Of a DNA stretch of 64,000 bases, positions 29,281 through 55,899 are shown one piece after another; the stretch's first letter is position 1; every line of letters begins with the position of its first letter. Source of the stretch: Microthyrium microscopicum (Eukaryota > Ascomycota > Dothideomycetes > Microthyriales > Microthyriaceae); contig MU004231.1 of assembly GCA_010405405.1 (NCBI GenBank), forward strand, positions 1,171,736 to 1,235,735, written 5' to 3'. Both the position numbers and the translations under genes were made by a program. Under the pieces are notes generated by a model. That model did not search any database. It saw only the letters and a program-made list of their open reading frames with translations, and had not been told where the DNA came from.

Positions 29281-29499
29281 TCAAGAACTCTCTCCCATCT
29301 TCCCTTGCCCTTTCCCCTTCCCACCACCACCTCTCTTCGCCGCCCTAGCAATCTTCCGTCCCTGCGCATACGTCGAAAGCGCCTCACCCGGTGACTTGCG
29401 ACTCCAGCCCACCGGATGATTATTCCGCGGATACGGCCGCTCCACAATCCCTCCCAAACCACTTCCTAGACGCTGCGCCCCTTGCAGCTGCGCAGAATC
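29281..29499 (-). other. Gene A: conserved in-frame extension beyond the UAG
   Basis: The frame of gene A continues for 72 codons after its TAG to a TGA. The tail begins DSAQLQ and contains ERPYPRNNHP and WSRKS, which match the post-UAG tails of copies B, E, F and G. It then ends in a very basic Gly-rich stretch (RKIARAAKRGGGG, KGKGQGK). It could be translated after readthrough or splicing. Confidence 0.6.
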
Positions 29500-30387
29500 C
29501 TACTCCGCAACAACAGCATGAGTCTCAACATATGCGCGATTCAACCGCTGGCCATTGGGCGCGATTTTGTAGTGGGAGAGGCGGATGTGCTCCATCATGC
29601 TGAGGAAGCCTTTTACCCAGTTGAAGGTTTTGCCGGCTTTGCGGCCGTTGCCATCTATGAAGCGTGGTCAGTGACGGATGGGAGGGTGGGAAGGAATGAA
29701 GGAAGGGCGTGTGTGAAAGGGGGATGGGGGGGTGGGGGTGGTGAGCTTACGGCATACTGGGCAGCGGAGCTCGACGATTTTGCCGGTTTCGAGCTCGACT
29801 AGGGATTTGTAGTAGCGGAGCTTGGTGTTGTGGCATTTTTGCCAGATGATGGGTTCTTCTGGGGCGGGTTCTGGGGTGGGTTCTGGGGCGGCGGCGACTG
29901 CTGGGTGCTCTATAGGGATGCTTGGGGAGGTTTGGGGGAGGAATGGATTCAGAGCGTGGTAAGTCTTGGGGGTATACGTACCAGCGGTCGCGTATGATGT
30001 TGGCGCGTATGGAGTATTGCTAAGGTAAGAAAGATCACTGTAATCTGGGACCAAGCCGGTGGTGTAAGAAGCAGTGGGATCATAAAAGCCCCCAAAATTA
30101 GTGAGAGGGGACGATATCTGGTTTGGCCCCATAGCATAATCTGTCGCGTTGAATGGTCCAGGAAACATATTGACTTGAGCATTAGGAAAATGAAAAGCGT
30201 CGTTGAATGGCACCGCAATATCTGGCACCGCTGGCTGGAAATTAAAAGGCATCGCGTTTTCAACAGTTTGTTGACTCTGCGTCTCTTCCATTCTGGGGTC
30301 AAAAACATGACCATATGGAATGCCCAGTCTCGCTACTGTCAATCGCACACGCTCCAGTCGACTCCATTCTTCTTCCGTAGGGTCCAT
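29500..30387 (-). CDS. Gene A: array C2H2-like zinc-finger protein
   Basis: Exons 29751-30387 and 29500-29654 (intron 96 nt) give 263 residues up to a TAG. The start is the ATG at 30387 (MDPTEEEWSRLERVRL). The middle is Pro/Tyr/Asn-rich and probably disordered. The C-terminal finger reads WQKCHNTKLRYY, LVELETGKIVELRCPVC, then HGNGRKAG, W..GF...MEHIRLSHYK, that is C-x2-C and H-x4-H. The intron begins directly after the second Cys codon, in phase 1, as in every array member. I do not recognise the family; a nucleic-acid or protein-binding role is only inferred from the finger. It is the most 3' copy of the array. Confidence 0.75.
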
Positions 30388-30606
30388 GAAAGAAGCGGTT
30401 ATCAATCGTACGACTCGGAGCGGTTTACAGAATTTGACCAGTCAAAGAGAGGAAACGAGATATCTCGCTTCGCCGTCAACTTGACATGCGCAGCGAAGCG
30501 GTATCAGACACATGCTGTCGATATGAAGCAGACTTATGAATGGATATCTGCAGTGTTGAGATATGGAGCGATGCAGGCATTACTTTAACACAGAAGAACT
30601 TTTGGT

Positions 30607-30864
30607 TCATGAGAACGTGTTGGCTTTGCTCCATGTTACTTGGAGGTTGTGCTCTACTAACGCTTTACCAAGCACGCTCAATATAACCGCTGACTCTTGA
30701 ACCACAGGAGGGACCGGTTTACACGGGGTGCAAAGATCACGTAGGCGGATGTCGTAATGCTGTGTGAGGTTCAAGCATACTTGATCTGCCAAACAGCGAG
30801 AAGCACATTCATTAGCTAGAGTAAGATGCACCGGAGAGGAGAAGGCCAATGTCAATATTATCAT
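30607..30864 (-). CDS. Small secreted cysteine-rich protein (candidate)
   Basis: A single exon of 85 residues starts at 30864. It has a signal peptide of about 17 residues (MIILTLAFSSPVHLTLA), followed at once by five cysteines in 30 residues (NECASRC, DQVC, DLCTPC) and then PVPPVVQESAVIL. A TATAAGG box lies about 35-45 bp upstream of the start. No family is recognised. It resembles fungal effector-like proteins in size and layout, but it could be a chance frame; no homologue is visible in the window. It lies between array copies A and B. Confidence 0.45.
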   Translation of the reverse strand: MIILTLAFSSPVHLTLANECASRCLADQVCLNLTQHYDIRLRDLCTPCKPVPPVVQESAVILSVLGKALVEHNLQVTWSKANTFS

Positions 30865-31267
30865 GATCTTGTATTGTGTAAAGGCTAAGATGAGGCTTCC
30901 TTATACAGCACAACGACAAGGAGCCTCTCGACAAACCTGGCAGTGGAAAGTCGAACCCGATTACACAACATCGAATCATTCTTTCAATTTTAGTCGGACC
31001 CAAGCAATTCGGCAGTATGAAACATGCATTATACGCGTTTGGCATCCCGAGTCGGGAAGGCAAACTCCAAAATCACACTGCCGAATTCTTCCATCATTAG
31101 TTCTTTCAAACGCAAGCAATTTAGCAGATACCTTCCCATAGAGGTAAGAGTATCTCAACAACCATGAGATTCTGACATGTCCATAGCATACATTTCCATC
31201 GCAGCAACAATACCAACAGGGGTGTTGCCAGTGCTACAGATCGAATCGAGCGGTACAAGTTGCCAGT

Positions 31268-31501
31268 TCAAGCAGCACGACGGCGCTTCTGTGGCTTTGA
31301 GTTCGCTGCTTCAGCAGGACGATGGCGCTTCTTTGCATCAGATGCGGCCGCTTCGGCAGCAGCTCTGGCCGCTTCTTCGGCAGCAAGCTTCTTCTTCTTG
31401 CGCATCGAGGCGGACCGATTAGATGACTTGCGATCCCAGTCGTCTGGATGCTTGTTCTTGGGGAAAGAACGCTCAGTGATGGTACGTGGATGGGATGGAT
31501 C
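31268..31501 (-). other. Gene B: in-frame basic extension beyond the UAG, with NLS-like end
   Basis: After the TAG the same frame runs 77 codons to a TGA. It begins DPSHPRTITERSFPKN, goes on with DWDRKSSNRS, then a Lys/Ala helix (RKKKKLAAEEAARAAAE). It ends with two basic clusters, KKRHRP and QKRRR, spaced like a bipartite nuclear localisation signal. The first part matches the tails of E, F and G. Confidence 0.65.
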
Positions 31502-32935
31502 CTAGTCATCCTTTTCCGCATGCTCCATCAGCCAACCGTAGTCCACTTTCTTTCCAATTTGGTGTCCCGCATGCACAACTCCTTCATGTGATAGCTGAAC
31601 ATGAAGTAGAAGCCCTTTGAAGCCTTGGACGCAGGCGAAAGACGCGTTGCCGATTTGGCGACCATTGCCTTCTATATTCGGGGTCAGTTCATGGTGTTGG
31701 ATGAATCAAGGAAGGGCAGACATCAACTTACTGCAGATGGGACACTGAATCTCAATGATTCGGCCATCCTTTAGCTGCACTCTACAGCCTTGGAACTTGA
31801 GCTTAGTGGTACTGCATTCCTTCCAGGTGGACATGGCCAAAGAATGACCTGTCATGACACCAACCACTTTGGCTTGCTCGAGTGATGGGACAAATGGGCT
31901 AGTCAGTGAAGTGTGCTCATTGTTGTTGGAGGCATCTAAATCGCCCGGAGAGGTGATTTGGTCTTCGTCAAAAGAGGAAGCGATGTCAGCTTCGTCATGG
32001 GCCACATCGTTATCTTCACCAGAATAAGCATCGCCATGGCTAGAAGCTGTAGCTTTCTTTCCCTTCCAAGCACGTGCCATTCGCTGCACCTGTTGCTTCA
32101 AAACTCGTTAGTCGAATAGATCCGAAACAAGTTAAAGAAAGTTACCTCGAGCACGTCGAAACGCTGACGGAAGTCGTTGTCGGGAGAGGCGGTTTCAAGG
32201 CTGTTATCAGAAGGTTCTTGAGATGTGCTAGGAGCAGGAGCGTGATCCTGATCAGCAGAAGTGAGTTTAACTTCGTTTAATTGTTTCTCCAATGCTTGTT
32301 AGCTGGGTAACTTCAAAAATATTTGAGAGAGACATACCTGCTGTATCTCGACGAGCTGAAGCAGTTCAGCGCGGGAAAGTCCTGCTGGGTTACGTTCCTG
32401 AAGCGGAATAGAAGATATAAGTCGCGCAGTAGCATTGGTGTCCATCACATCAACAACGGGCAGTGGTGCTTCAGCTCCTAGTGCGGCATTGCCGGCTTGC
32501 GCAGGCATGGCTGTTGGAGAGTATCCGCTGGAAGTGGGCGCAAATAGTTCTTGGCTCGGATAGTGCTGGATGCGGGACTGGAAGTCCTGGATACCAGAAA
32601 TGATGTCTTGGACTACTGCTTGGTCGGTCATAGGACTAAGGATTGGAGATTGTAAATGTTGCGACTCGAATTGGGGTGGTGGAAAAATGCTCTCAAATTC
32701 AGGTGTCGAGCCCGAGATTTGCGTACCAGGATCCTGGTGAAGATTGTCGTTATCGGTGAGATCGGTACTGTAACCGTTCCAGTAAGGCGGATTGTAGTCC
32801 ACGTCCTGGGACTCGTGCTGAAGGAGGTAATTAGCAAGCTGGCTTTTAGCAGAGGTACGTAGCAGAGGTAGATCTTGTGGAAATGTTCTCGTTAAAGCTA
32901 GCTGACAGCATTGAGACTTTACTTACAAAGGACAT
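31502..32935 (-). CDS. Gene B: array C2H2-like zinc-finger protein, five exons
   Basis: Exons 32927-32935, 32338-32817, 32146-32286, 31732-32095 and 31502-31671 join in frame to 387 residues up to a TAG. The first coding exon is only 9 nt (MSF); its ATG has a GCC context, and a TTTATA-type TATA box lies 100 bp upstream. Then come Asp/Pro/Ser-rich disordered sequence, an AGLSRAELLQLVEIQQ helix, a basic stretch (RMARAWKGKK) and an acidic part. The finger is TWKECSTTKLKF ... IIEIQCPIC, KGNGRQIG, and GLLLHVQLSHEG. This copy has more exons than the others. The family is unnamed; its other features follow copy A. Confidence 0.75.
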
Positions 32936-33035
32936 GGCGCCGACGAACAATCTGCGAGGCGTCTCTAACGAAGTGGTCGAGATGGTGTTTTGAGGTTTGG
33001 TGAAGATCTCGAACACCACCGGCAGAGGAGAAGAC

Positions 33036-33041
33036 TTTATA
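33036..33041 (-). promoter_or_regulatory. TATA box of gene B
   Basis: TATAAA on the minus strand lies about 100 bp upstream of the gene B start codon, in a GC-richer leader without an in-frame ATG. Confidence 0.5.
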
Positions 33042-33895
33042 GTACGCGGTGGCAGCGCGTGGATTAGCGCGGAAGCAGTGGAGGAAGGTACGGCCACGAG
33101 GATCAACCTCTAAAGGCAAGAACACTGTAGTGCACCTACTCCAAAAGATTGACTAGCGGGCTGCTCTTTCCTCACGGGGCCACGGGCACACAGATCTATC
33201 GGGCTAAAGCAACACCCTTGCAATCCATGGTCAAACTGGGAGGCTCTATGCGAGATCAATGGCAAGATCAATCGAGGTTTTGGCAAGAAGCACCAATTCC
33301 GATCATGGCGATAACATTGTTCTTCTGTCCCGTGAGCCATCATTCTATCCCTACAGAAAGAACTCAAAGTTGAGAGGAAAGTCCGGGTTTTATTGTGCGA
33401 TGATATCACTTTTGGATGGTAGGCTCTACTATCACTATGTTCCATATCAAAATAAAGACGTAACAAAGTCAAGCCCAATGGCGATAACTTGAACCTCCCG
33501 CCTCGTGAAAAAAAAAATGCATTCTCGCGAGTGGTGGCTTTGGACTGACTTGACGCAAAAGAGATTGAAGGATCGAGGTTGGGAATGAGTGAAATCATCT
33601 TCGTCGGTAGAGCTATCAATATCCATTGGATCCGAATCAGGGTTGTTCTCAGTGAGTCTCTCACCCATAAGAGTATCACCATCGGGATCGACTGGCGGCA
33701 CATTTGAATCTGGCTTCTTTTTTTTGACGGGCGTTGGCTTGGTGCGTCGCGGATCAAGAAGCCAATGGCAAAAGAACTTCATGAACTTTGATACTGTCTC
33801 TTCTTCGCCTGGTGCTGGATTCAACGGATCGACGTGAAGTTCGTTATCTTGCAACACAGCCCAGTCTGGCGCTCCATCGTTGCCCCGATGTTTCT

Positions 33896-34390
33896 TCACA
33901 TCAGTGTTTGGGCTGTCGCCACAGGTGGACCTGCTGCAATGGGGCCATAGACTAAAGTTGGGAGAACAAAAGGAGGCCGTGTCGGTTGTTGCGCGATCGC
34001 AGCACGTTGTGCCTGTGTGAGAGTTCCTGCACTTGTGACGCCAGTATTGGGAGTGCCTGCGAGGTATGAACGATGGGCAATGGTCAGTGGAATCGCCGGA
34101 CTCTATCGGGCATATTCCGAGTGTCGCATAACCCATGCCGGGTTTAGAGGACCTGCATAAGGACCTGCATTTGGTAGATGGCTGTGGTTTTTCCTGATAT
34201 GGCTGGAGTCCTTTTACTCCTTTAGTCGATTTGAAATGGCCTTCCATTCGGCCGTTACCACCTAGAGAGATTATGGTTAGATTCTATTGGAGGGAGGAAA
34301 GAGTGATATAGGACAGTACTTACCACATATCGGGCATCGGAGTTCTGCTATGAGGCTTCGGTTGACTAGGGCCAAGATACCACAATTGTG
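33896..34390 (-). pseudogene. Copy C: truncated and frameshifted array zinc-finger gene
   Basis: The homology begins at GILALVNRSLIAELRCPIC, just after a stop at 34391-34393, so the N-terminal part is missing. The intron (34262-34323, 62 nt) sits at the family position and has the same length as in copy D. GGNGR and KGVKGL follow. A 2-nt loss relative to D shifts the frame before the His pair, which continues as HIRKNH and LNPAWVMRHSEYAR. A TAG (34103-34105) stands at the family position. The tail after it, SPAIPLTIAHRSY then GTPNTGVT, matches D. A further frame, about 33560-33895, encodes an acidic segment (PMDIDSSTDEDDF) that may be a fused or separate remnant. The copy is probably dead. 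Confidence 0.6.
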
Positions 34391-35505
34391 TCAGATTCCC
34401 ATATTCAGACTAGACGTCGGTTTCATTCAAGTAAAGATATATATAAGTTTCGACTGATAGTTTCATCGGTCACTGTGATATATATGAGATAACACGACAA
34501 CACACATGAGCTCACTGATTAATGTTTCAGATACTGTCGTGGTGAAATGCTTGTATTAAGTACTAGTTCGTCATGCCTCCAGAAAGACCAAACTTCAATA
34601 TATAACGGTTGCTATAATCTATCTGCGATTCTATTTGACATATAGTCCAAAGGACGGCTCTTGTGCGGGAACAGATATGAAATAGAAGTAAGCAAATACG
34701 TTAAAGCCTCTAAGGTGACATCTTGGCTCATACAAGAGACAATCCGCTTGCAGTAGTACTCTACCAACAAGCTGCGCTTGTGATCGCAGACAAATTGGAT
34801 CAGGCAAGCCATAGAATTTGATTTCGTCGAACCTCAGTACAATTGCGGCCAGAGCTCTGAAGCATTAACCTATTCCTCCAGATACCTACTGTAATAGACA
34901 AGATTATTGTATTAGCAGAAGATTCTTTGATCTTAATTTCTCAGATATCTAGCAAACTGAAGGTTGATTAGACAGGTTTTCAGAGCATCAGGTGAGCAGC
35001 TCAGCTATGTGTGTTACTCTCGTGATGCCTGATCCGCATCCAACAGAGCTCATTTCGTAGTCACGAGAGTAAATAGTCCCTGTTGGAAAGGACTGTCGCG
35101 ATCAACTGTGCTTTGACTTGCATTTGCGCTGGTTTTTGCCGCAGAACAGCAATGACATATGTTTTCATTTAGATGAGAGGACAGAGATGACACATATGAG
35201 AAACATGGCGACTCGGTTTATTGTACATATTTCATATTCTGACTATTTTACAATAGTAATGGGGACTATCTAATGATGCAGAGCTTTTGGTTTGTGAAGA
35301 TACAGCACATGCTCGTCTTCAAAGAAGCAATAACAAAAACAAGGATTGACCAATGGACTCATGAGCAAGCTTCAAACACTTTTCTTCCCTCAACAACGCC
35401 TCTTGGATGACATCGCCAACGCCTCTGACCCTATGTATTAACTTCTCGTCAATTCAATGTCAATCTGGACGACAGCTCTTATGGTCTCGCTCCTGAGAGT
35501 CCTGA
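34391..35505. other. Intergenic, AT-leaning, with a 12-bp inverted repeat
   Basis: No gene is supported. TTACTCTCGTGA (35014-35025) and TCACGAGAGTAA (35061-35072) are perfect reverse complements separated by 35 nt and could be a terminator-like hairpin or a protein-binding pair. Confidence 0.5.
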
Positions 35506-35895
35506 CTATCCACTAGTAGCGGGACCTCCATGTGTGAGGAGTCGTCCATACGGTCCATTCGCTGCTTGCGCCATTGAGGGTCCAGCTGTCACCAAAGTTC
35601 CCGCAGCTGGGCCTGCTGCAGTGCTAGCTGGCAGCGGCGCTGGAGCGAGTGGAGGTTGTGCAGGCTGTGATATGGCAGGTGGCCCTGCTAGAGTTGAAGC
35701 TGGCGCGATAGGTGGTGCCGGAACAATAGCAGGCAGCTGTCGCTGTGCCGGGCCTTGTTGGCGAGGCGGCACCAAGCCAGCAGCTCGTGCAGCAGCAAGC
35801 CGAGCAGCAGTGAATGATCTTCCAGTTGTCGGTCCATGGTTGGGGGTGCCCACCGCGTATGCAATTTGGGGTATGTTCAATGGATTCACCGGATT
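35506..35895 (-). other. Gene D: in-frame extension beyond the UAG
   Basis: The frame stays open for 129 codons after the TAG of gene D and ends at another TAG. It begins NPVNPLNIPQIAY and GTPNHGPTT, closely matching the post-UAG tail of copy C (SPAIPLTIAHRSY, GTPNTGVT). It then has an Ala/Arg helix (AARLAAARAAG) and a long Pro/Ala-rich disordered end. The length without a stop and the match to C argue against chance. Confidence 0.65.
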
Positions 35896-36914
35896 CTATC
35901 TATGGTGGATCGCATTTCTCAACACCCACTGTGGATTGAAGATCCCTCCAAAGGTGGGAACACCGTGCTTCTTGCGAATGTGCTCCTGGAGACCTATCAC
36001 CCCTTTGGTCCACTTGAATCGTGGCCCAACTGGGCCTTGGCCGTTGCAATCTAGAGATCATGTTAGAGTCTGCTTGAAGAATCGACAGCTGTTAATGGAG
36101 AGGAGCACTTACGGCATATTGGGCATCGAAGCTCTGCTATCTCACCTTGGTCAACCGGGACTAGGATTCCGTGGTAGTAGTATCCAGATGCGGTGTCTGA
36201 CTGCCACTGCATCGCAGTTCCGTTGACCGTTGCGGTCAGCATGGGGCCGTATGGTACTATCACCGATGGGTGAAAAGGCCGTCGTCTATTGGGGCGTCGA
36301 GAGCCAGGAGCTGTTTGGGTAGGAGCAACTTGATGGGGAGCAGCAGCGTGACGACCAGAACGTCGAACACCACCTGCCGTAGCATTTGGCGCTTGAGGAT
36401 TTGGCACTTGAGGATTTGGCACTTGAGCGACTGGTATATGAGCGACTGGTATATGAACGACTGGTACTTGAGTATTTGGTACTTGAACGATTGGCAGCTG
36501 AATGTTTGGCACTTGAGCAGGTGTCAGTTGAGGCTGTGCTTGATTTAGACCAGTAGCAGTAGGATCCATGACTGGTGGATGTTGCACGATTGTATCCGAT
36601 AATATGTATAAACGTTGGTTTCGATTAGGAAGGGGGTGCGGACCAATGATAGGAAGGCCACTTGGGTGCGTATAAGTGTTGTCTGGAGAGAGCGGCCGTG
36701 GCTGTTCCATCGGAAGGAGTCCGTAGTTCACACGGTAATTAACAGGACTGTCTTCTTGCTCTTTGGCCTGACCATCGTGTTGCTCAGTAGCCCAGTCATC
36801 GTCCGATTTAGTGGCCTGACTATCGTTTTGAGGATCGTCGTTTCCCGAAGAGTCGTGTGGAGGGAATAGCACAGAGTCGCGTTCCATAGCGGAAGTCCAG
36901 AATGGCCCGGTCAT
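35896..36914 (-). CDS. Gene D: array C2H2-like zinc-finger protein
   Basis: Exons 36113-36914 and 35896-36050 (intron 62 nt) give 318 residues up to a TAG. The start at 36914 is the first ATG in the open frame. The N-terminal half is acidic and Gln/Pro-rich with pentapeptide repeats (see 36386-36520). It is followed by Arg-rich RRSGRHAAAP and SRRPNRRRPF, which look like a nuclear signal or nucleic-acid contact. The finger is divergent upstream (YYYHGILVPVDQGEIAEL) but keeps RCPIC, then HCNGQGP, W.KGVIGL, EHIRKKHG. D and C form a subgroup distinct from A, B, E, F and G. Function unknown. Confidence 0.72.
36386..36520 (-). repeat. 15-bp coding repeats inside gene D
   Basis: About nine imperfect repeats of CTTGAGGATTTGGCA-type units encode five-residue blocks such as QVPNP, QVPNT, HIPVA. 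Differences between units change Asn-Pro to Val-Ala. The repeat gives a Pro/Gln-rich, probably extended linker, and could vary in number between strains. Confidence 0.75.
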
Positions 36915-37667
36915 GGTTTCGGTTACCAGCCAAGGCAATGGGAGAGCTGGCGTGGATTTGGTAAGAAGTGATAGTTTTGAGAAGCGGCCGCGCAAAGAAC
37001 GACGAACTGTGACACTGATGAAGTATCGTACTTTGAGAACTCTTTTGATTTATAGAAGAAGTTATAGAACTGGGCGTGAAGGAAAAGTCAAGAACTTGGT
37101 TGGGAATCGGGATGGTGTGGTAGTAAGAGGTGTAGAGAATGGAGTATAAAATCAGGCTTGGGGCAACCAACGGATTGGATTGGACGGAGCTAGCGAGGTC
37201 GAATCGAGGTATTGACGAGGTGAGCTCACCTCGAGAATGTCGGGACATGTACTAAGCCAGAATCAGGTAGCGATTGCTCCATGAAAATGACAATATCAGA
37301 TATACGCCAACATTAAAGATCCCAAAGCAAGAATTTGACAGTATAGAGTTGGAGATACAAGCTGTATTGATATTAACGGCTATAAACAAGGTTTCCGAGA
37401 CACCGAACAGAAGCATGTCCGCTTTTATAGTCATAACAGCCATGACAATTCCAGAAGTCTGCTGTACTGTAATAATAACTGTTTGGACAAACAAAGGTCG
37501 AACCGCGAGGACAACATCACAAAGTCCTCGTTTCAAATCATGAATAATCCTGCAGTATGACCATCCTGGAATTGTCTATTTCCGTAACAAGAAGTAGCAT
37601 TTTCAAAGTCGTCCTGCCCATAATTGTCAAACCTCACACCTTCACCAATCACCGATGTGCTCAACCG

Positions 37668-37874
37668 CTATTCGATAATGATACCAGAAACCGTTCCTGC
37701 CGTGGAATCCAAGTGTGCTCGAGCAGCTTCTGCTCGTGCTCGCTCTGTCTTCTTGTGTTCCTTGCGCCGAGTGGTTTGTGACTGTGAACGGAGAGTACTT
37801 TTCCGATCCAATCCTTTGGTGTTGAGATTCTTGAGAAAAGGACGGATTGTAATGTCGCGCGGAGCTGCTGGATC
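37668..37874 (-). other. Gene E: in-frame basic extension beyond the UAG
   Basis: After the TAG the frame runs 68 codons to another TAG. It begins DPAAPRDITIRPFLKN, then GLDRKSTLRSQSQ and a charged helix (RRKEHKKTERARAEAA). The first 35 residues align almost without gaps to the tails of F and G. Confidence 0.68.
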
Positions 37875-38940
37875 CTAGCCAGCACAAGTTGCAACACGTA
37901 TCAGCCACTCGTAATTAAATCGCACCTTCTGATTCGGGTAGTGGGATAGGCGCATGTGCTCATAGATTCCCTTTAGGCCTTTAGACCATTTGTCCCGACC
38001 TTTGTGGCGGCCGTTACCGGCTAGATCACAAGTCAGTTGAAGTTACCGTGGTTAGAAATAGCTTTGGAAACTCACAGCAGATTGGGCATTTGATTTCGAT
38101 GATGCTGAGATCTTTCAGCTCTACCAAGTTGTTCGAATAGCGCAATTGGGTGGTAGAGCACCGCTCCCATGTCGATGGGTCGGTACTCTCGGGCGGTACA
38201 GTATTCCCAGTCTCTGCCTGTTTCGGTAATGGATTTGGAAGATCTTTGATTTCTCTCACCTCCGGGCGCTGTGTAGCGTCCTGAGAAGACATAGCCTGTG
38301 AATTTGCCAAGCTTGACAAAGGTCCAAGAGGATGGGCCGCATTATTAGTTTCGGCAGGGTGACCTCCAGATTGAGACGCAATTGAAACAAAGGGAGAAGT
38401 TGTCGGGTGAACAGCAGGAGCGATGCTGATAGGAGGCATTGTCCCTAAACGTCGACCTGAATTACGACGCGAGGAAGCTGATGTCAAGAGAGCATTATTG
38501 GGAGGAACTGGGGGTGGTGGCATCGAACCATGTTCGGCTTGAGCAGTTACTTGATGGGTAAAACCAGTATCGTCGTTCGAATATTGTAGTGTGGATTGCA
38601 CATTTGGAGCATAGGCGTTGTTGATGATATAGTGAGGTAGAGAGCTCATCTGAGGATGCGTAGAAGTGTGAGGGTTTCCAGTCGAGAGAGTGCCGGATGC
38701 TGCGCCGTCATCTCGAGCAACCGCACCGGAGGGCAGAGCTGAAGCTTGCCTATCTCGATGGTTGGTGTTCTCTTGGGCGTTGCGATCTGTGAGGAACGAG
38801 GTCACCATGGCATCGATGGCATTCTGGTCTAGAGAGACACCGCCATTTGGAGCTGGGCGTAGAAGGTAATGGTAGTTGTGAAGTGTCCCTATTACCAGTC
38901 GCACGCATTCCTCATGAGATAAAGCGCGATGGCCTGACAT
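37875..38940 (-). CDS. Gene E: array C2H2-like zinc-finger protein
   Basis: Exons 38076-38940 and 37875-38020 (intron 55 nt) give 336 residues up to a TAG. The start is the second ATG of the frame, chosen because MSGHRALSHEECVRLVIGTL aligns with the N-termini of F (MADSRPMSREECMELVHLTL) and G. This N-terminal helical domain is shared by E, F and G only. A disordered middle follows, then TWERCSTTQLRY, LVELKDLSIIEIKCPIC, SGNGRHKG, W.KGLKGIYEHMRLSHYP, and KVRFNYEWLIR before the TAG. The cysteines and histidines are all present, as C-x2-C-x21-H-x4-H. The element shared with F, G and I lies 165-267 bp upstream. Confidence 0.78.
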
Positions 38941-39104
38941 GATGATTTTGGGAAACAATGTGATCGACGAATATGTTGTTTGTAGTATAGAAACAGTGAA
39001 GGAGAGTCTTTGGTAACGGGGAGAAGGGTGCAGTAAAAAGTAGAGTTGAAGAAAGCGAGGTGAAAGAGATGTTGAGGGAATTTTATAAGAAAGACTCGGA
39101 GGAT

Positions 39105-39207
39105 GAACTCGGGGTTAGACTAGCCAGGGTATTGTTGTAATGCCATTGGACTGCACTTGGAGGTGGTATGGCCTGAACCTATGGAGCGTCTAAGGAGGTG
39201 GTATAAC
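39105..39207 (-). promoter_or_regulatory. Shared array upstream element, gene E copy
   Basis: AACTCGGGGTTAGACTAGCC and, further upstream of the gene, TAAGGAGGTGGTATAAC match words in the elements before F, I and G. It lies 165-267 bp upstream of the gene E start. This copy is looser and has an extra spacer. Confidence 0.5.
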
Positions 39208-39589
39208 TTGGGCCTATAAAGAGGTGCTAGAGCGTGAAAGTACCAGCAGTGTCTTCGCAAGACTAGACTCCCAATGTGTCTTGAAATCCTCAATCTCGAC
39301 TCGCGTTGACTTAAGAACTATAGATACAATGCTTGACGGCTCTAAATAGAAACCTGGACTCTATTGCCATGCTCAGACTTGTTGTTTGACTGCTAACAAC
39401 CTTGGTAATCGATTCGCCAAGGAATGTAGAGCCATTCTGACTATCGTTTTGGTATAGAAAAGCCTTGAAAGTTCTATCAAGTCTTTAATCTGTCACTCAA
39501 ATCCAATTCACGTTGTTGATAGTTGGTAACGTTTCATCGTAGTTCGCCACAGGAGTTTTCAAATACCAACAAGATTGAACACTGATCGT

Positions 39590-40400
39590 CATTATACTGC
39601 TATCTGGCATTTGTAAGAGATGTTGAGGGCATCGCAGCTAGAAGGATAAGCGCACATTACATATCGCAGTATTGATGAAATCGTCTGGTAGAATGGTGGC
39701 ACCATTTACTGCTCATTCGAAAAGTTGGACTGCTGTCGTATAGATTAATGGAAGTTGCCAACGTGCAACTCGCAGCCTTTAGAGGCCCTGCAAAACAGTG
39801 GCTTTGTGGAATATTCGAGCGAGAGGTATCGTTTTGAACTGACAGTGACCCGATCGGACCTGGAAAAGACTTTTATGACGGGTGTGCCAAAAATGCGGTT
39901 CAGTCAAATCAGAAGCGTGAGCTGCTGTACTCGGTGCAGCAAGCACATGAGGCGGTAGTCCTTGAGAATCAAGTATCGAGTCCTGATCAGCAAAAGCCGT
40001 GGCCTTAAAGTGCGCTTCATCGATGCGTGTTGGCGCCGTTCCTGACGGCACCGAGCTGCTTCCTTTCCGATTCCAGACATTTTTCAACCGTATTTGGATA
40101 CTCACGCCAATGATTGGCTGTATAAAATGTAGACTTGTGCTGTTACAGAGCTGAGGGTCCATTTGGCGCCAGTAATATAAGAATAGTCTCCTTTTATCGT
40201 GAAAGGGGACACTGTAATGCCATCATACCTACCTAAGTAGGTACTTAAGTAGGTGATCTGAGGAAGATATACGCATTTAGTAAGATTGATGGTGGCAGGC
40301 CGCCTCTTCGTCAATGAAGATATCCAAAACAGCATATATGTTATCGAGTTACAATGCGACGAGTTTCTCCTGCGATGAGGGGGGTTTAAAGATTGTTGAG
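39590..40400 (-). pseudogene. Relic array copy, G-like
   Basis: Three separated blocks match gene G in the right order and spacing. DNIYAVLDIFIDEEA (about 40345-40300) matches NIYNMVDAFIDEET. ADQDSILDSQGLP ... LAAPSTA (about 39990-39930) matches ADQMSIPQFQGLP ... LAASSTA. A nucleotide block at 39595-39640 (GGCATTTGTAAGAGA) matches the segment just before the G finger. The frame is no longer continuous and no intact finger or tail remains. It is an old, decayed tandem copy. Confidence 0.6.
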
Positions 40401-40875
40401 GGTATGCAACACAAATATCAATTCGGTTTCGCGGCCCCTGAGCCAGGACTCGCCATGTTGGCGTTGATACTCGAATTAGAGGACTAGGAGTCGCAAGATC
40501 GAAGACACTTTAAGAAATGTGCCAGAGAGAACAGACATTTCTCGTCCGTCAAAGATGCCCGAAAGCGGAAGTAGAGAACAATTCTTCTGTAATAATACAA
40601 TAGGACCATCGCTCGATATCAAAATCAATAACAAGAATTCGGATTGTTATGGCATAGTAGTCATACTAGTCCCGATATCTAAAAGCCTCAATGGACGTCC
40701 TCACACTAGCCATAATAAAATCAATCCGAAGCATCGCGCTGCTTGGCAGTCATGCATATTTCCATCGTCACAAATACCAGCCGCAAGGCATGGCTAAACC
40801 CCTGATTGCACGGATATTTTCGGTCCATGGCGACTGGACCCAGTCAATAGAAATCACCGTCACAGTGCTCAAGGT

Positions 40876-41022
40876 TTAGGAGGCAGGTGCCGCCTGAGCT
40901 CGCACTGCCTTCTTCCGATTCCGCTGAGCCTTAGAACGCAGCGTGGAAGTACGGTCTACTCCACGTGTGTTGGTGTTCTTTGGATATGGTCGCTTAATGA
41001 TGTCCTGAGCAGTCGCTGGGTT
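40876..41022 (-). other. Gene F: in-frame basic extension beyond the UAG
   Basis: After the TAG the frame runs 48 codons to a TAA. It begins NPATAQDIIKRPYPKN and continues GVDRTSTLRSKAQRN then RKKAVRAQAAPAS. It aligns with the tails of E and G along most of its length. Confidence 0.7.
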
Positions 41023-42114
41023 CTAAACAGCAACAGCAGCACCGCATCTAAGAAGCCACGCATAGTCGATTCGGACTTTTCGGCCATGGATCTGGTAATG
41101 TGACATTCGGACATGCTCTGCGAGGCCCTTGACACCTTGAGCCCAGTTCCATTGCCCGGTTTGTCGTCCGTTGCCGCCTAAAAGGTGTATTAGATCATGG
41201 CCAGGAAAATTTGGGCATATGTACTTACCGCACAAGGGACAACTCAAGGCTTTGACGGAGCCATCTTTTAGCTGTACATAGTTGTTGAAGTGCCGCAATT
41301 GGGTTGCTGAACACACCTCCCAAGTTGATGGGTCAGGTACCATGACCTGCACTGTTAAGCCAATTGCTGCTTGTTCGGGTAGCTGTGCCGGAGTTTGTCG
41401 TATCACTGGAATGGAAGGAGCAGCGGCGCGATGGTGGACCCGCTGGTTTTGTGCAGTGCTTATTTGAGAGTTTGCGACGTTACCATTCACTACCAGGGTC
41501 GGAGCATTCGTGTTGGCTGGCAAGGCTGGGCTTGGTCCTGCAGGATGTGGGAGTGTGGCGCGTGGGTTGCGATCAATTGCCATAGAAGGCATCATCTGTC
41601 CAGAAGAGTGGTTGGATGCTCCACCGTGAGCGAATATCTGAAAGGGCGGCAGTATCGTGGGCTGAAGGAACTGATCGAAGCTGTCGTCGCCTTCAGACGT
41701 AGCGAGATGTCCGATTACAGAGGTAGTGTCCCAGTGCGATTGCGAGAATGGATGCTGCATATTGGGTGAAGCTGTCAATGTAGTCGACGGGATCTGATCC
41801 ACTTGCGGGTGGCCGAACGTAATGGTGTTATCGAGAACTGAATTGGGAGAAGGGTCAATCGTAGATGCGGTACTTCCTGGCGTGGCAGGTTTGAACTCCG
41901 CGGAGGGACCAGAAGATCCTTGGCTGGATTTCTCATGTCGTTGGTGAATGAAATAGTCCACCATGTCGGCTATGGCATCCATGTTGTAGCTAAGGACACT
42001 CATTGACGGCTCAGTATCATTGGGCATGACTGTAACCAATTGATTTGCGGAAACAAGCGTTAGGTGGACCAACTCCATGCATTCTTCACGAGACATGGGA
42101 CGTGAATCCGCCAT
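41023..42114 (-). CDS. Gene F: array C2H2-like zinc-finger protein
   Basis: Exons 41229-42114 and 41023-41177 give 346 residues up to a TAG. The intron (41178-41228) is 51 nt without stops, so the unspliced frame also stays open. GTAAGT and TTTTAG ends at the family position show it is an intron. The start at 42114 (MADSRPMSREECMELV) was preferred over an upstream ATG by alignment to E and G. A disordered Ser/Thr/Pro middle precedes TWEVCSATQLRHF, VKALSCPLC, GGNGRQTGQ, W.QGVKGLAEHVRMSHYQ and KVRIDYAWLLR. It forms a tandem-duplicated unit with gene I. Function unknown. Confidence 0.78.
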   Translation of the reverse strand: MADSRPMSREECMELVHLTLVSANQLVTVMPNDTEPSMSVLSYNMDAIADMVDYFIHQRHEKSSQGSSGPSAEFKPATPGSTASTIDPSPNSVLDNTITFGHPQVDQIPSTTLTASPNMQHPFSQSHWDTTSVIGHLATSEGDDSFDQFLQPTILPPFQIFAHGGASNHSSGQMMPSMAIDRNPRATLPHPAGPSPALPANTNAPTLVVNGNVANSQISTAQNQRVHHRAAAPSIPVIRQTPAQLPEQAAIGLTVQVMVPDPSTWEVCSATQLRHFNNYVQLKDGSVKALSCPLCGKYICPNFPGHDLIHLLGGNGRQTGQWNWAQGVKGLAEHVRMSHYQIHGRKVRIDYAWLLRCGAAVAV

Positions 42115-42301
42115 CAGGAAGGGGGTGAGAGCTTTTGATGGAAATAGAATGGCTCGATAGGGTAGACGCGCAGTGATATGGAAGGTTGTTTGCAATAATG
42201 GATCGCTAGGTGAACAAAGAAGGGTTCTATGGGTTTAAAGGTGGAGAGAAGGTTGTTGTGAAGTGGAAAGGAAGAGGTTGTCGTAAGATGTACGCGAAAA
42301 A

Positions 42302-42390
42302 GTTGCTGTGAGATGTAGGAGAGACTCGGGCCAGGTTAGAATGGGGCCTTTTTGTTATGGCCTATAGGACGCATAAGGAGGTGTTATATA
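42302..42390 (-). promoter_or_regulatory. Shared array upstream element, gene F copy
   Basis: GTTGCTGTGAGATGTAGG, GAGACTCGGGCC, TTATGGCCTATAGG and CATAAGGAGGTG occur in this order, 188-276 bp upstream of the gene F start. The same words in the same order lie before gene I and, in weaker form, genes G and E. Confidence 0.65.
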
Positions 42391-43445
42391 GAATGAACGT
42401 TCAGGTGGTCTTTATTGTGGCGTTAACCCGTGAACCCGATGCTATTCCACAAAGCCGCAAATGTAATTGGCTATTGAGTGAAGAGTTCCTGTCTAAAAAC
42501 AGATACATCTATCCGACTTTCCCACTTTCAGGATCTACATCCCGGGTAGTTTATATGTTTATAAAAATCGTGGTTATTGCACATGTCGAAGGCAATGTAG
42601 GAAACCGCAGCGAGAGCAGCTACTAGAAGCGATCTATAGCCGCGAGCGGACCGAGTCAGTCAAATGACAGATCAAAAACTGCTTCTCTTGCCAGGAAGCT
42701 GTTTTTTGTCTAGAAATCTACCTGAAACAAATCCTGTGTATGACAAGCCAAAGTAACCAACAGGAGATGCACTGTGCACTCTTTATACGGTGGAAAAACA
42801 CCATGTGAAATAAATCAAATCGCAAGAACAGTGTTTGCATATTCTCATACTGCTGTCGTTGCTATCTAACAATATTCGGAAAACGACGTTGCAACTGTGC
42901 CGCCTCAGAGGTTGTCAAATACTCCGTAGTCCGTCTGCATATCCAGATGACTGCCAAATTCTGCCTCTTATTTTGTTTTCATATACCAAATAACCGGGCA
43001 AGCAGATTCTGACTACCCCCGGAACTTCATGGAGAGTCAAAAATAGAATTTTGATGGCGTAGAATTGCGTAAACGCGCAGTGATATATCTCAATTGGTGG
43101 AGCTCATCACTCCCATTCTACATATTTGCGCAAACTTGCGAGGCTTCGAATTTCTATCAGGCTAGGATTGCAGCTCATTATCGGATAACGTGAAATCAAA
43201 CTGTATTGCTTCTGTCTCAAACCCATCATTGTAACCAGAACCACGCTCAACGTCCACAGCAAATACCTTCCTCTGGTATGGGTACCTGGCATATATTCAA
43301 GTAGGTCACTATGTATGGTAAAGGAATCCATCAATCTGACTGCGACATTTGGGCAATAATCTCCTTTATTTCTAACCATCAGTATGCACCATTGACTAAT
43401 AGAATCCTTTCCAAACTCAGAAAGATCGCAAGTTTTAGTGGAGAT

Positions 43446-43530
43446 CACGACCATTTCATGAGGTGAAGTTGGAATAAAGATGGCGCTTGTGTCCGGCAGG
43501 GCAAAGCGGGTATGCGGGCCGGTCCCATCA
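43446..43530. repeat. Duplicated 85-bp fragment, copy 1
   Basis: CACGACCATTTCATGAGGTG through GCGGGCCGGTCCC matches 47875-47957 closely. On the minus strand both read like TGPH....PALP..SAVFI.TSPHE, suggesting the remnant of a coding exon carried along when the H-G unit duplicated. It sits about 320 bp beyond the 3' end of gene I. Confidence 0.65.
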
Positions 43531-43847
43531 TTCTGGCGCAGGACCAATTGCAAGAAACTTGGGGAAGACCATTTAATAACATCTACTTCTCATCGAAACA
43601 TGGTTGGAAATAATTGCTGCGTTCTGCGACACCAGGATTTGAGGCATATTAGGCTTCGATGCGGAGACAGCTGGGACTCGATTCAATCGTATTGTCGCAA
43701 GGCACGGCAATTTTTATGTAACTTTTAGTAAGTCACTTGCTGGATGTTGGTAATTATACAGAACAAGCAGAGAAAAGCAATAATTTTCGTAAATCCGGCG
43801 CTATGCACGCGATTAATTCTATTCATCATCATCCTCCTCCTGTTGTC

Positions 43848-44705
43848 CTATTTCTCCTGCTCCTCCTGTTCCTCCTTCCCTTGCTCTTCCGCAGCTACTG
43901 CTTGTGATGCGTTAGGCGCTGCAGCCGCTGGCGCATTGGAGCTGAGAGAAATGGCTAGACGTCTTCCAGCAGACACAGGAGTGGCGGTTGCAGCCGCAGG
44001 AACGCGAGCTGAACTGGCCGAGGCGGTCATAGGAGTTGCATGGATACCAGTCGAACTGCCAGGATTGGCGCTTGTATTTGCGGCTGTAATGATGTCCTCT
44101 ATGGAGTCTGTTAGCAGTGCTGAAGTTTACGGATGTTCGAACTTACCCGCAAATCTGATGAGTACGCTGGGCTCATTGAACGGCTGAATCGCGTTTGCGA
44201 CCTCACCCATTCGAATCAGCACTAATGCCAGATCCGGATAACGCTCAGCGACTATTGAGGGAGGAGTCGTACTCTCGACTAGAAGATGAAAGAGTACAGG
44301 CGACACTACATCCGCGCCTGCCGGGAGAGGACCATTCCAGTTGCCTCGCATGGAGTTTAGGTGTGCTTGCAGAGGCGGCAGACTATTGGCAACCATAGGG
44401 CGCACTTGTCGGCCATCGAAAATCGAAAGTGCCCGAGCCAGCATATCTAAGGTGGCGCTGAATTGGGCGTAGCCCTCCATCGGTGCAGATGTGCGGTTTT
44501 GATACCACAAACGAGCAACAGGGCGCCAGTACGGCTGGCTCAGACCAGTCTATTCGCACATCAGTAGGAATGCTATAGTCACGCATTAGATGGGAAGGAT
44601 TACCGGGCTGAAGAAGAGAACAGCGACGACTTCGCCTCTGTCCACCTGCTCGTTGAATTGAGCACACTGGGATTCAGACATCCAGCTCAGTGACATCTCG
44701 GCCAT
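43848..44705 (-). CDS. Gene I: unknown family, paralogue of gene H
   Basis: Exons 44604-44705, 44147-44549 and 43848-44098 (introns 54 and 48 nt) give 251 residues ending at a TAG. It starts MAEMSLSWMSESQC, and the second exon begins TGLSQPYWRPVARLWYQ. The core is helical (GNWNGPLPAGADVVSPVLFH, LVESTTPPSIVAERYPDLAL, VLIRFA). The tail is Ala/Ser-rich with VSAGRRLAISLSSNA and an acidic end (EEQGKEEQEEQEK). It matches gene H over its full length, with identical first-exon length and the same intron positions. No family is recognised and no signal peptide or membrane segment is seen, so a cytosolic or nuclear protein is likely. Confidence 0.78.
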
Positions 44706-44869
44706 AGTTGCGTGCTGGGAATATCAGGCGCAGAAGTATTGAAAGCGGTTTACAGATGACGGTGTTGGTAAGAGATTCCTTGGAGGAGTAAGTGATGAGC
44801 GCGCAAAGGCGTGGTGAATGAGAACGAAGAATTGAGCAAAGCAATTCCAGAAACCGGGAGTTGTTGTGA

Positions 44870-44948
44870 GTTGTAGAAGAAACTCGGGGCCACGCTAGCA
44901 TGGGATCCTACTGCCATGGCCTATAAGATGAATAAGGAGGTGGTATAG
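44870..44948 (-). promoter_or_regulatory. Shared array upstream element, gene I copy
   Basis: GTTGTTGTGAGTTGTAG, GAAACTCGGGGCCA, CCATGGCCTATAAGATG and AATAAGGAGGTGGTATAG lie 165-243 bp upstream of the gene I start. The match to the gene F element is notable because I and F encode unrelated proteins. Confidence 0.65.
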
Positions 44949-45551
44949 CATGGGCAAATGAAAAGCGTAACGAGGTAGCATAGCGTGGCAGTTCTAGCTG
45001 ATCTTCATTTCTGTCAATCGCATATTTTCTTCAGAAAGATTGCTTACACAATATACTGATGTAGAGGAATAGAGGCGGAAAGCATTATTGACAACATATC
45101 GCATTATGAGCAGCAATGGTAGTAACACATCTATTAATCTACATACAGTTGGGTCCAACTTCCTGGCCATGTATTTCAGGACTCTTCGAGCAACTTTGAG
45201 AACAATTGATTGGAGCTAGGGTGAGCAGTATATATTGATATAGAAGAACTAAGCACTAAAAAAGCGGGTGCTTTTAAGGCTAAGGCTGAAACTAAATTGA
45301 CAATTACAAAAGATATCGAGGACCCCGAACAATAACATCGCCACTTCCAACATTAAGACTTTGCGTATAGTAATAATAATCATAGAGAACAAGAGTGATG
45401 TTGGGGTAATGGGGCCAATGGTGATGGTGATCTTTGGAAGCAACAGTAAGAATACCCTAATCCAACAACAAGAAGTTCCCGTCCCATGGGCCACATGTTC
45501 GGTAATCTGAGATCAGACTTTCCAGAGATAGCTCTGTCGTTACCTACCCTC

Positions 45552-45746
45552 CTAATCGATGGTGGCACCGTCGAGTGCGTTCGTCACGTCGGAGGGGCGA
45601 AGTGCTTGTGACCGCATTGCCGCCTTGAGTGACTTGCGCTCTTGGATTTGCGATTGAGACCGCAGGGTTGAGCGACGGTTCAGTCCGCGACTGTTTCGAT
45701 TCTTGGGGTATGGACGTAGCGTAAGGTCTCGCGGTTCTGTTGGATC
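45552..45746 (-). other. Gene G: in-frame extension beyond the UAG
   Basis: After the TAG the frame runs 64 codons to another TAG. It begins DPTEPRDLTLRPYPKN, then GLNRRSTLRSQSQ and a basic helix (RKSLKAAMRSQALR). It is the best match to the E tail. Confidence 0.7.
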
Positions 45747-46762
45747 CTATACTCTCACAACCGCAACACGCATAAGCCATGCAGCATCGATTCTAACCTT
45801 CTGGTTCGGGAATTCTGAGAGTCGAATATGCTCCATCAATCCCTTGAGCCCCTGTACCCAATTGACCTTCTTGCTAGTATGGCGACCGTTTCCACCTAAT
45901 ACAACTATCAGATTTCTGAAGCAGTGTAGATATTTAAAAGAGACTTACCACAAATGGGACATTGAATCTCTCGGATAGTGCCATCCGGCATTTGTATGAG
46001 ACTGTTGGAGAAACGCAGTTTGAACGATGAACAAGTATCCCATGTCGCAGTATCGACGTTCTCTGGTGAAACATGTTCACCAACTACTGCTTGTTCAGGC
46101 AGTTGAGTTGGGAGTGCATTGATCAAGCGCAGTTGAGAGCGCGTAGTTTGTGATCCGGAAGAAGTTGCCTCTCGGTTGTGGGGACGGTGTCGTCGGGCCA
46201 TCGAGCGAGGGGTGATGTTCTGGAATGATAGTGGGCCAACAGCTGTACTCGATGCAGCAAGCGTATTGTAGGGTAGCCCTTGGAATTGGGGGATGGACAT
46301 CTGGTCAGCAGGAGCGGTGTCCATGAATGAAGCGGTAGTGATGTCTGTCATAGCGTTCAATGATTGCATTGAGCTGCTTGCGGTTGCAATTCTAGAAACT
46401 GCTTCGGAAGGCATTCGAGAACTGTTGCTGACATTGGGCTGCGAAGATTGGAAAGTTTGGTCGTTATAGAGCTGAAGCCCCATTTGAGGCTGTTCCACAG
46501 GGATATAGTCTTTTGCGATTCCCGTGTAGGATGCGGCAATGCTATCTTGACTAGCCGGGTCTAGAGAAGGCGCGCGTACTTCGGAGGTTTCGCGATGCAA
46601 TACAGTCTCTTCGTCAATGAAGGCATCCACCATATTGTATATGTTGGCGAAGTGTGGCTCGAGTCCACTTTCTCCTTCGAAGAGAAGTTGCTGAGGATGG
46701 AAGAGAGTTCGTAGCACCAGTTGCACGTAAGTGTCGCGGACCATTGATCGAGGAGTCGCCAT
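45747..46762 (-). CDS. Gene G: array zinc-finger protein lacking one ligand
   Basis: Exons 45949-46762 and 45747-45895 (intron 53 nt) give 320 residues up to a TAG. The N-terminus MATPRSMVRDTYVQLVLRTL and NIYNMVDAFIDEE align with E and F. A disordered middle with RRHRPHNREA follows. The finger is TWDTCSSFKLRF, IREIQCPIC, GGNGRHTS, W.QGLKGLMEHIRLSEFP, then KVRIDAAWLMR. The second His of H-x4-H is Glu here, so zinc binding is probably weakened or uses another ligand (a His or Asn nearby). The shared element lies 198-285 bp upstream. It pairs with gene H in one duplicated unit. Confidence 0.77.
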
Positions 46763-46959: not shown

Positions 46960-47047
46960 ATTGTTGTGAGATGTAGGCGAGACTCGACGTGGCGATAGCA
47001 TGGGTTCTGGTTGCTATGGCCTTCGGAATGATTGAGGTGCAGTATAG
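46960..47047 (-). promoter_or_regulatory. Shared array upstream element, gene G copy
   Basis: ATTGTTGTGAGATGTAGGCG, GAGACTCG, GCTATGGCCT and ATTGAGGTGCAGTATAG lie 198-285 bp upstream of the gene G start, in the same order as before F and I. Confidence 0.6.
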
Positions 47048-51730: not shown

Positions 51731-52135
51731 CTTTACGACTTGAGAGTTTTGGAGGAAGGCGTGATAGAGAGCAGGAACAAGGTAAGGCGACAGTAGTAAA
51801 TAGGGCGCCAACCGTGTGATGTGGTCAGAATGATCAATTGAACAGCTGTTGTCTTTGGTATCCAGGAGAGCATGAAGTGTGGCCTTGAAGGTTCAATGGG
51901 CGGAGTAGCCCCTCCACTATTACAGGGGGTGGGATTCCGTTTGGCAGATGCTGAATAAGCGTCTAGCGTGATTTCTGCCTGCAACTTTCCAAAGGGAATT
52001 GCCCCTGCCCGATCTGGCCTTTGTTCCTCTCTTTGGACAAACTCGGAACTCATCCAGTCACCACCAACCAACCTAAGAACGCTCATTATTTCATTCACCC
52101 TCTCTTTGTCACCATCTTCACTTCACTCCTCCTAC

Positions 52136-55100: not shown

Positions 55101-55598
55101 AAGATTAAATAGCTCTACTAGCTCTAGGATTTTATACTTCTTAAATCTATTATATACTAATTAGTACTATAGATATTATCCTCTATTAATTCAAAGTAAT
55201 TACTAATATTCTACTATTATTAGGCAATTAGATCTATCCTTTAGATTCTAATTATAGTAAATATATTCTAGTAGAGGCCTATAATATTGTTCTTAAAGCT
55301 CTTTTTCTATAGTAATATATAATATTAATAGTACTACTACTATAGTAGTTATTATAGTTAATTCTTCTTAAAGAGGATCTATTTTAGATATTATTTAATA
55401 AAATTATAGTTAAAATACGCTAGATTATGATCCAAAAATAAGTATAAGGGAAATTTATATAACGCCGTTTATCCTTGCGTAATAATACCTATTTACACCA
55501 CTAGCGCGGATCACGACTCTATTAGGTTAGTACTGAATTCCTCCTCTACAATAATCGTGCAGGAATCCTGCACAAATCAGAACTGCTAACGCTGCCCA
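52136..55598. mobile_element. AT-rich, RIP-like dead element flanked by 16-bp inverted repeats
   Basis: From about 52250 to 55480 the sequence is almost only A and T with scattered CT/AG. TA is extremely common and CA/TG scarce, the pattern left by repeat-induced point mutation. No frame longer than about 80 codons remains. TGGGCAGCGTTAGCAG (52136-52151) and CTGCTAACGCTGCCCA (55583-55598) are perfect inverted copies. Beyond the 16 bp a GTGCA word also matches at similar spacing, so the whole block is probably one DNA transposon about 3.46 kb long. A target duplication is not clear and the superfamily cannot be told. It is far too damaged to be active and is old relative to its flanks. Confidence 0.75.
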
Positions 55599-55899
55599 CT
55601 GACTCTATCCTCATCCATGTTGCCCGCCACTTTCATCGACAAACCCCATTCTCTGCGCTTTCATCAACCCTCTAAATCCCGATACTGCGTTCCCTCTACC
55701 CAAGCCATATAACTCCCCTTCCTCTCTTTAAGCCAACGCGTACGCACGCGTTTTCTTCATCTCCTCCTTCTGTAAAGACTATAACTCCTTTTCAACGCCC
55801 CTCTATCCTCGATACGAACGTTTCAAACGCCGAACCCCGACTTACAATAACACGACCCCACCCAAACCTTTCAAGCTTACAAGCTCCACTCCAGAGACC

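Follow-up and report, generated by a model that had tools for sequence, protein, structure and literature searches.

Adenosine-to-inosine (A-to-I) editing of fungal mRNAs is described as favouring a U before the edited A, a G or A after it and a position in a hairpin loop, and it can turn a UAG stop codon into UGG (PMC4817773, PMC11156358). According to the same accounts, editing sites mislead automated annotation into false introns. The enzyme is given as the tRNA deaminase Tad2-Tad3 together with Ame1 (PMC11087585), editing in Pyronema is thought to be of separate origin (PMC11156358, PMC11087585), and for Fusarium the bases beside the A are reported to count more than structure (PMC9600606). 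One described example is CHE1 of Fusarium graminearum, a C2H2 zinc-finger gene in which a conserved premature UAG is corrected by A-to-I editing (PMC11169179). Here we report a family of seven tandem zinc-finger-like gene copies (A to G) in a 64,000-nucleotide stretch of contig MU004231.1, which we call the window and which protein searches identified as belonging to the Dothideomycete Microthyrium microscopicum. All seven copies lie on the minus strand, and each has a TAG after the finger.

We propose that an editing-dependent C-terminal extension is the best explanation of this arrangement, with a probability of roughly 0.6. Each intact gene would encode a single continuous protein despite a UAG within its frame, and this UAG would be held in a small mRNA hairpin loop, with a U before the A and a G after it. 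A deaminase of the ADAT (adenosine deaminase acting on tRNA) type, that is, a tRNA-editing enzyme, would convert the A to inosine. The UAG would then be read as UGG (tryptophan), and translation would run on into a conserved basic tail, while unedited mRNA would give a shorter protein that ends soon after the finger. By analogy, editing may take place in the sexual fruiting body. The proposal builds on a conserved UAG, coding conservation on both sides of it, a predicted hairpin with some compensatory changes and missing splice signals.

Conservation on both sides of the UAG

The seven TAGs stand on the minus strand exactly where a first-pass annotation of this DNA had placed them, at 29500..29502 (A), 31502..31504 (B), 34103..34105 (C), 35896..35898 (D), 37875..37877 (E), 41023..41025 (F) and 45747..45749 (G). 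That annotation had the finger frame running into the TAG in every copy, which holds except in copy C, where the start of the finger is in a different frame from the stretch that the TAG closes. It was right that the frame beyond the TAG stays open for 48-129 codons: 72 codons in A (29281..29499), 77 in B (31268..31501) and 68 in C (33896..34102), each followed by TGA; 129 in D (35506..35895), 68 in E (37668..37874) and 64 in G (45552..45746), each followed by TAG; and 48 in F (40876..41022), followed by TAA. The first stop is TAG in all seven copies, while the tails close with a mixture of stops (3 TGA, 3 TAG, 1 TAA).

The tails align with one another, as had been claimed, and do so significantly in the TAG frame only. 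When the first 40 codons were compared, 15 of the 21 pairs reached a shuffle p<0.01 in this frame (median z 5.9), against 3 of 21 in each shifted frame (median z 0.5). The tail motifs quoted in the first-pass annotation are present, apart from copy A, which begins DS and not DP. Among the six pairs of B, E, F and G, identity was 0.48-0.74 at first, 0.61-0.77 at second and 0.29-0.42 at third codon positions. The ratio of nonsynonymous to synonymous divergence (dN/dS; Nei-Gojobori, first 31 codons) was 0.11-0.24 in four of these pairs, and the other two were saturated. Copy C compared with D gave a dN/dS of 0.72 and flat codon-position identities (0.65, 0.61 and 0.61). Because the alignment is confined to one frame, divergence concentrates at third positions and dN/dS is low, comparison of the sequences indicates that the tails are constrained as protein, with copy C excepted. 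Thus, the purifying selection that had been claimed for a translated tail is supported outside copy C. The first-pass annotation had put forward no mechanism for passing the stop. Copy C looks like a decaying copy, since it is frameshifted and its tail is relaxed relative to that of D.

Without C, the tails have isoelectric points of 10.9-12.0 (6/7 copies), compared with 5.8-9.7 for the upstream parts; only 5% of the residues in the tail of D are lysine and arginine. As the tails are basic, they could perhaps add nuclear or nucleic-acid binding.

Conservation starts upstream of the TAG and is not limited to the tail. The motif (V,I,L,F)(D,N)xx(W,Y)(L,V) lies nine codons before the TAG in six copies and ten codons before it in F, whose one extra codon was set aside when the pre-TAG stretch was aligned for the conservation score and for dN/dS. 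Over the 16 codons before the TAG, the seven copies gave a sum-of-pairs score of 392 in frame, compared with -107 and -87 in the shifted frames and a mean of -330 after codon shuffling; the in-frame score was reached by none of 2000 codon shuffles in each of five copy groups. The last five of these codons are less conserved (p 0.0015 for the seven copies, 0.092 for E, F and G). The dN/dS of the 16 codons was 0.24 for E-G, 0.11 for E-F, 1.59 for B-E and 0.75 for B-G, with the other pairs saturated. In pairs of E, F and G the 48 nucleotides before the TAG are similar (z 3.7-4.4) and intron 1 of the same genes is not (z -0.9 to 0.2). This contrast is absent in some pairs: intron 1 reaches a z of 4.2 in A-B and in C-D, and the pre-TAG stretch of A-B has a z of -0.1. 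Taken together, the pre-TAG stretch appears to behave as coding sequence.

Position of the UAG in predicted RNA folds

The hairpin-loop test was fixed before folding, so that its outcome is a prediction that held, but the helix register was chosen after the folds were seen. In the standard fold, which covered 30 nucleotides on each side of the UAG (61 nucleotides), every copy had the A of the UAG in a predicted hairpin loop, with ensemble probabilities of 0.896-1.00; copy F gave 0.85 and 0.96 in repeat samplings. With flanks of 15-100 nucleotides the mean loop probability was 0.97-1.00 and the lowest single value was 0.83 (B, 15 nucleotides). Other TAGs in the window (n=1741) had a mean of 0.29, and 13.7% of them reached 0.89. 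Among TAGs with similar GC content (n=991) these figures were 0.33 and 17%, and the intron-1 acceptor TAGs of the same genes had a high loop probability in one of seven cases. In a scan of offsets from -45 to +60 over the seven loci, offsets 0 to +2, which belong to the same loop, had the top mean loop probabilities (0.98-0.99), and the next value away from the stop was 0.65.

A shared helix register could be laid over the copies, and five or six of its six pairs form in A, B, C, E and F. Of the 106 offsets scanned, the A of the UAG was the best for pairs in this fixed register (31/42; next 23), and the pair total compared with random TAGs gave a P of 1e-5. In an ungapped alignment, 73.8% of cells were paired in register, as against 29-45% when the register was slid, and 2 of 500 shuffles equalled this; the covariation score of the register was equalled by 5 of 500. 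When codons were replaced by synonymous ones, none of 200000 draws matched the loop probability of all seven copies, and the probability was 1.5e-5 to 5e-5 without C. Both comparisons with random TAGs (loop probability and register) and the synonymous null for seven and six copies treat the copies as independent.

A general likeness to the tRNA anticodon arm (a seven-base loop with the A third) was considered and dropped, because only copy E has such a loop in its minimum free energy (MFE) fold and a register with a three-base loop ties at 31/42.

Elsewhere in the window, on the minus strand at 51181, another TAG, with a loop probability of 0.98, is flanked by open stretches of 164 and 378 codons. 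The open reading frame that follows it looks like coatomer delta, and this TAG may simply be intronic. A scan of the window for stops flanked by long open frames returned 24 TGA, 20 TAG and 13 TAA. As there is no excess of TAG, we see no sign of window-wide recoding.

Explanations for the conserved UAG

What favours recoding of the UAG at the RNA level over an intron is that every copy has its UAG in a predicted hairpin loop. The sites resemble known editing sites in several ways. U precedes and G follows the target A in 7/7 copies; the A is predicted to be in a loop in each of them, with stems of varying strength and loops of varying size; and, apart from the frameshifted C, conserved coding sequence flanks the stop on both sides in one frame. 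Relative to the Fusarium preference, positions -1, +1 and +3 (A or G) match in all copies, and the G at +2 matches in four of seven.

Several observations weigh against editing. The detailed folds differ among the copies. MFE loops have 3, 9, 3, 3, 7, 9 and 8 bases in A to G, and the stems vary as well: seven closing pairs in A (stem-loop within 29491-29509), five in B (within 31493-31511), three each in C and D, six in E (37866-37884, with the loop CUAGGAU and the A third) and seven in F (around 41014-41032). The loop of copy G is closed by only two pairs, inside a larger stem. The shared register is poorly paired in D (3/6) and G (1/6), and the U of the UAG is itself paired in A, C and D. 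Because loop sizes, stems and register pairing differ in this way, we consider the loop position of the A to be common to all copies in the predicted folds, and the detailed hairpin shape not to be. The surroundings are also rich in hairpins: 51 other UA sites within 120 nucleotides of the stops average 0.43, and 24% of them reach 0.89. Changes on both sides occur in four of the six register pairs; a slide of +1 gives as many, and so do 26 of 500 shuffles. The RNAalifold consensus on the same alignment is weak (-0.78 kcal/mol), with a covariation term of +0.2, which is no bonus. When only MFE folds are scored, the product over the seven copies is 0.003 with synonymous codons and 0.0024 with codon shuffles. 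Since the copies share ancestry, the synonymous null was also evaluated for a single copy from each lineage, which gives about 0.0025; this figure and the MFE-only product are the cautious ones. At +4, where Fusarium sites favour A or G, all seven copies have U or C (0/7 match).

Other objections concern the lineage. M. microscopicum lies outside the groups with reported editing (Sordariomycetes and Pyronema), which is no logical requirement, and our searches of an open-licence literature library turned up no report of Dothideomycete A-to-I editing; one paper there mentions the class, for the distribution of orthologues. A published account places the origin of the interaction between Ame1 and Tad3 in Sordariomycetes (PMC11087585), and editing is described as not found in fruiting bodies of Botrytis or Aspergillus (PMC11156358).

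Beyond the editing-dependent extension itself we make a broader suggestion, which we put tentatively and at a little under even odds. A Dothideomycete may possess stop-recoding A-to-I editing, possibly with an origin separate from that in Sordariomycetes and Pyronema, and this tandem family may have kept a coding-embedded hairpin around one UAG through extensive divergence, so as to switch its basic C-termini on together.

The alternative that survives best, although we consider it unlikely, is that a weakly spliced second intron has its 3' splice site at the TAG, so that splicing would add the tail and retention would end the protein at the TAG. We favoured this reading first, on the NCBI models of G and E, and later downgraded it. 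Four copies have database models (P0001 for G, P0002 for E, P0003 for F and P0004 for D), which handle the one site in three ways. P0001 and P0002 contain a 51-nucleotide 'intron' that ends exactly in the TAG, so that the tail is kept and the 16 residues before the TAG are lost. P0004 drops another stretch, from W to GR with the stop included. P0003 ends at the TAG and additionally lacks a 45-nucleotide in-frame piece (41272-41316 in copy F, VCSATQLRHFNNYVQ). This gap of P0003 is perhaps another false intron, because the removed piece aligns with conserved residues of the other copies.

An acceptor role would explain the TAG in 7/7 copies, because TAG is the only stop ending in AG, and the acceptors of intron 1 are TAG in all seven. 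The weaker conservation of the last five pre-TAG codons and the dN/dS values of this stretch with B (1.59 and 0.75) also fit an intron. The splice signals do not. Intron 1, which sits between CPxC and xGNG of one motif, has a canonical GTRAGY donor and a CTRAY branch site 12-15 nucleotides from its end in every copy. For the second TAG, a GTRAG donor at intron lengths of 40-130 nucleotides is missing from every copy, and so is CTRAY 8-22 nucleotides upstream (CTGAT occurs at 26 nucleotides in B and E). In-frame GT at the splice position of E and G is missing from A, C and D, and the base that follows GT differs between E (G), F (C) and G (T), as in free valine codons. Additionally, the skipped stretch is conserved as coding sequence; there E, F and G resemble one another, which they do not in intron 1. 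A second intron would also leave the predicted hairpin centred on the UAG unexplained. We therefore downgraded the intron because the stretch is conserved as coding sequence, the splice signals are missing and the four models disagree. Exitrons, or retained introns with a length divisible by three, are in-frame stretches between coding parts that allow two products. Here, too, such a stretch lies between coding parts, and two products would be possible. Unlike an exitron, the stretch before the TAG has no consensus donor or branch site, and its position is not conserved.

Translational readthrough, in which an unchanged mRNA would give a C-terminally extended isoform across the UAG, is in our judgement slightly less probable again. 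It would account for the conserved open frame after the stop, for the retention of the stop in 7/7 copies and for coding conservation on both sides. The leaky context for readthrough is of the UGA-CUA type, however, and the TAGs here are followed by GAT, AAT, AAC or AGT. Signals for readthrough usually lie downstream of the stop, whereas here the stop is inside the loop of the structure, and readthrough has no need for UAG over UGA or UAA. Finally, it is very improbable that the genes are pseudogenes, with tails left over from longer ancestral proteins and TAGs that are old inactivating changes, for example through repeat-induced point mutation (RIP), by which TGG can become TAG. The frameshift and relaxed tail of copy C and a further relic at 39.7-40.3 kb would fit this reading. 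Against it, purifying selection acts on the tails of B, E, F and G although their synonymous sites are near-saturated, and RIP is not expected to strike the same homologous codon in all seven copies while sparing the remainder of the frame.

The gene family, its surroundings and related editing systems

Intron 1 divides the upstream part of each intact gene into two exons. In copy A (29503..30387) exon 1 spans 30387-29751, with a start codon of our choosing, intron 1 spans 29750-29655 and exon 2 begins at 29654. In copy B (31505..32080), whose 5' end is uncertain, the last exon-1 stretch is 32080-31732, followed by intron 1 at 31731-31672 and exon 2 from 31671. The corresponding exon 1, intron 1 and exon 2 start are 36914-36113, 36112-36051 and 36050 in D (35899..36914); 38940-38076, 38075-38021 and 38020 in E (37878..38940); 42114-41229, 41228-41178 and 41177 in F (41026..42114); and 46762-45949, 45948-45896 and 45895 in G (45750..46762). 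In the set spliced in silico and in the composition and lineage tests, the upstream part of D starts 45 codons before the database start. Copy C was left out of the protein alignment (6/7 copies) and of the set spliced in silico.

The ligand pattern C-x2-C ... H-x4-H is found in A, B, D, E and F, and in C it is present only across the frameshift. In copy G the second finger histidine is replaced by glutamate (RLSEFPNQK, 45798-45824). A Pfam scan of F and G (2/7 copies) gave no significant match and did not reach the cut-off for a C2H2 zinc finger; copy G had a sub-threshold match to PF08273 (E 0.086). Neither a PDB search with a profile of 6/7 copies nor Rfam, searched with the window, returned a significant match or a match, respectively. 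AlphaFold2 models of the four database proteins had a mean pLDDT (predicted local distance difference test) of 41 and were not used further. Among 5.8 billion proteins we found no homologue outside this genome, and the only matches were the four M. microscopicum proteins; these searches accepted E up to 1e-3 or up to 10, and one scored only the 8000 candidates that shared most words. The same searches found no database protein for copies A, B and C.

Between E and F, at 39690-40350, lies a possible degenerate extra copy of the family. It has short matches to exon 1 of G (46607, 46201 and 46080) and also matches the end of the G tail (45559), and the finger motif was not found there. An upstream element is shared by 42303-42388 (before F), 44861-44965 (before a gene at 44.1-44.9 kb) and 46961-47037 (before G), and is partly present at 39156-39223, before E. 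The sharing of this element suggests common regulation of these genes. The open frames that lie behind it at 44127-44730 on the minus strand have no finger motif. Further along, 52001-56000 is AT-rich (GC content 0.28-0.30, compared with 0.44-0.54 elsewhere in the window), and perhaps consists of RIP-affected repeats.

One review names it as an open question how mRNA editing is distributed over the classes of filamentous ascomycetes (PMC11156358), and fungi with pseudothecia have been named as worth investigating for editing (PMC7306014). The AMD1 paper gives the pseudothecium as the fruiting body of Dothideomycetes (PMC5496914). The locus described here offers seven concrete candidate sites that can be tested in RNA-seq of fruiting bodies. 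The same combination, a conserved in-frame UAG within a conserved hairpin loop, suggests a way to screen paralogue families without any RNA. Should editing be demonstrated here, a conserved gene family would become available as a test case for stop-loss editing.

Based on the published accounts, the family has points in common with three groups of edited genes. Like CHE1, it consists of zinc-finger genes with a conserved UAG and a predicted hairpin loop, and in both cases the errors of the gene models take the form of a false small intron or a model that ends at the UAG. The arrangement is reversed, as the finger precedes the UAG here and the fingers of CHE1 follow it. The CHE1 site is kept in close Fusarium relatives, whereas here the site is kept in seven diverged Dothideomycete paralogues, and editing has been demonstrated in CHE1, whereas here we infer it.

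PUK1 and AMD1 of F. graminearum (PMC4817773, PMC5496914) likewise have an in-frame UAG between coding parts, false introns and a change of UAG to UGG. They belong to other protein families, and their editing has been measured in perithecia. The family also resembles the stop-loss sites of Sordariomycetes (PMC11156358), where editing of a UAG adds a C-terminal extension and where hairpin loops and a U at -1 are preferred. For stop-loss editing in Sordariomycetes, that account reports no function in sexual reproduction; in the M. microscopicum family the extension is conserved across paralogues.

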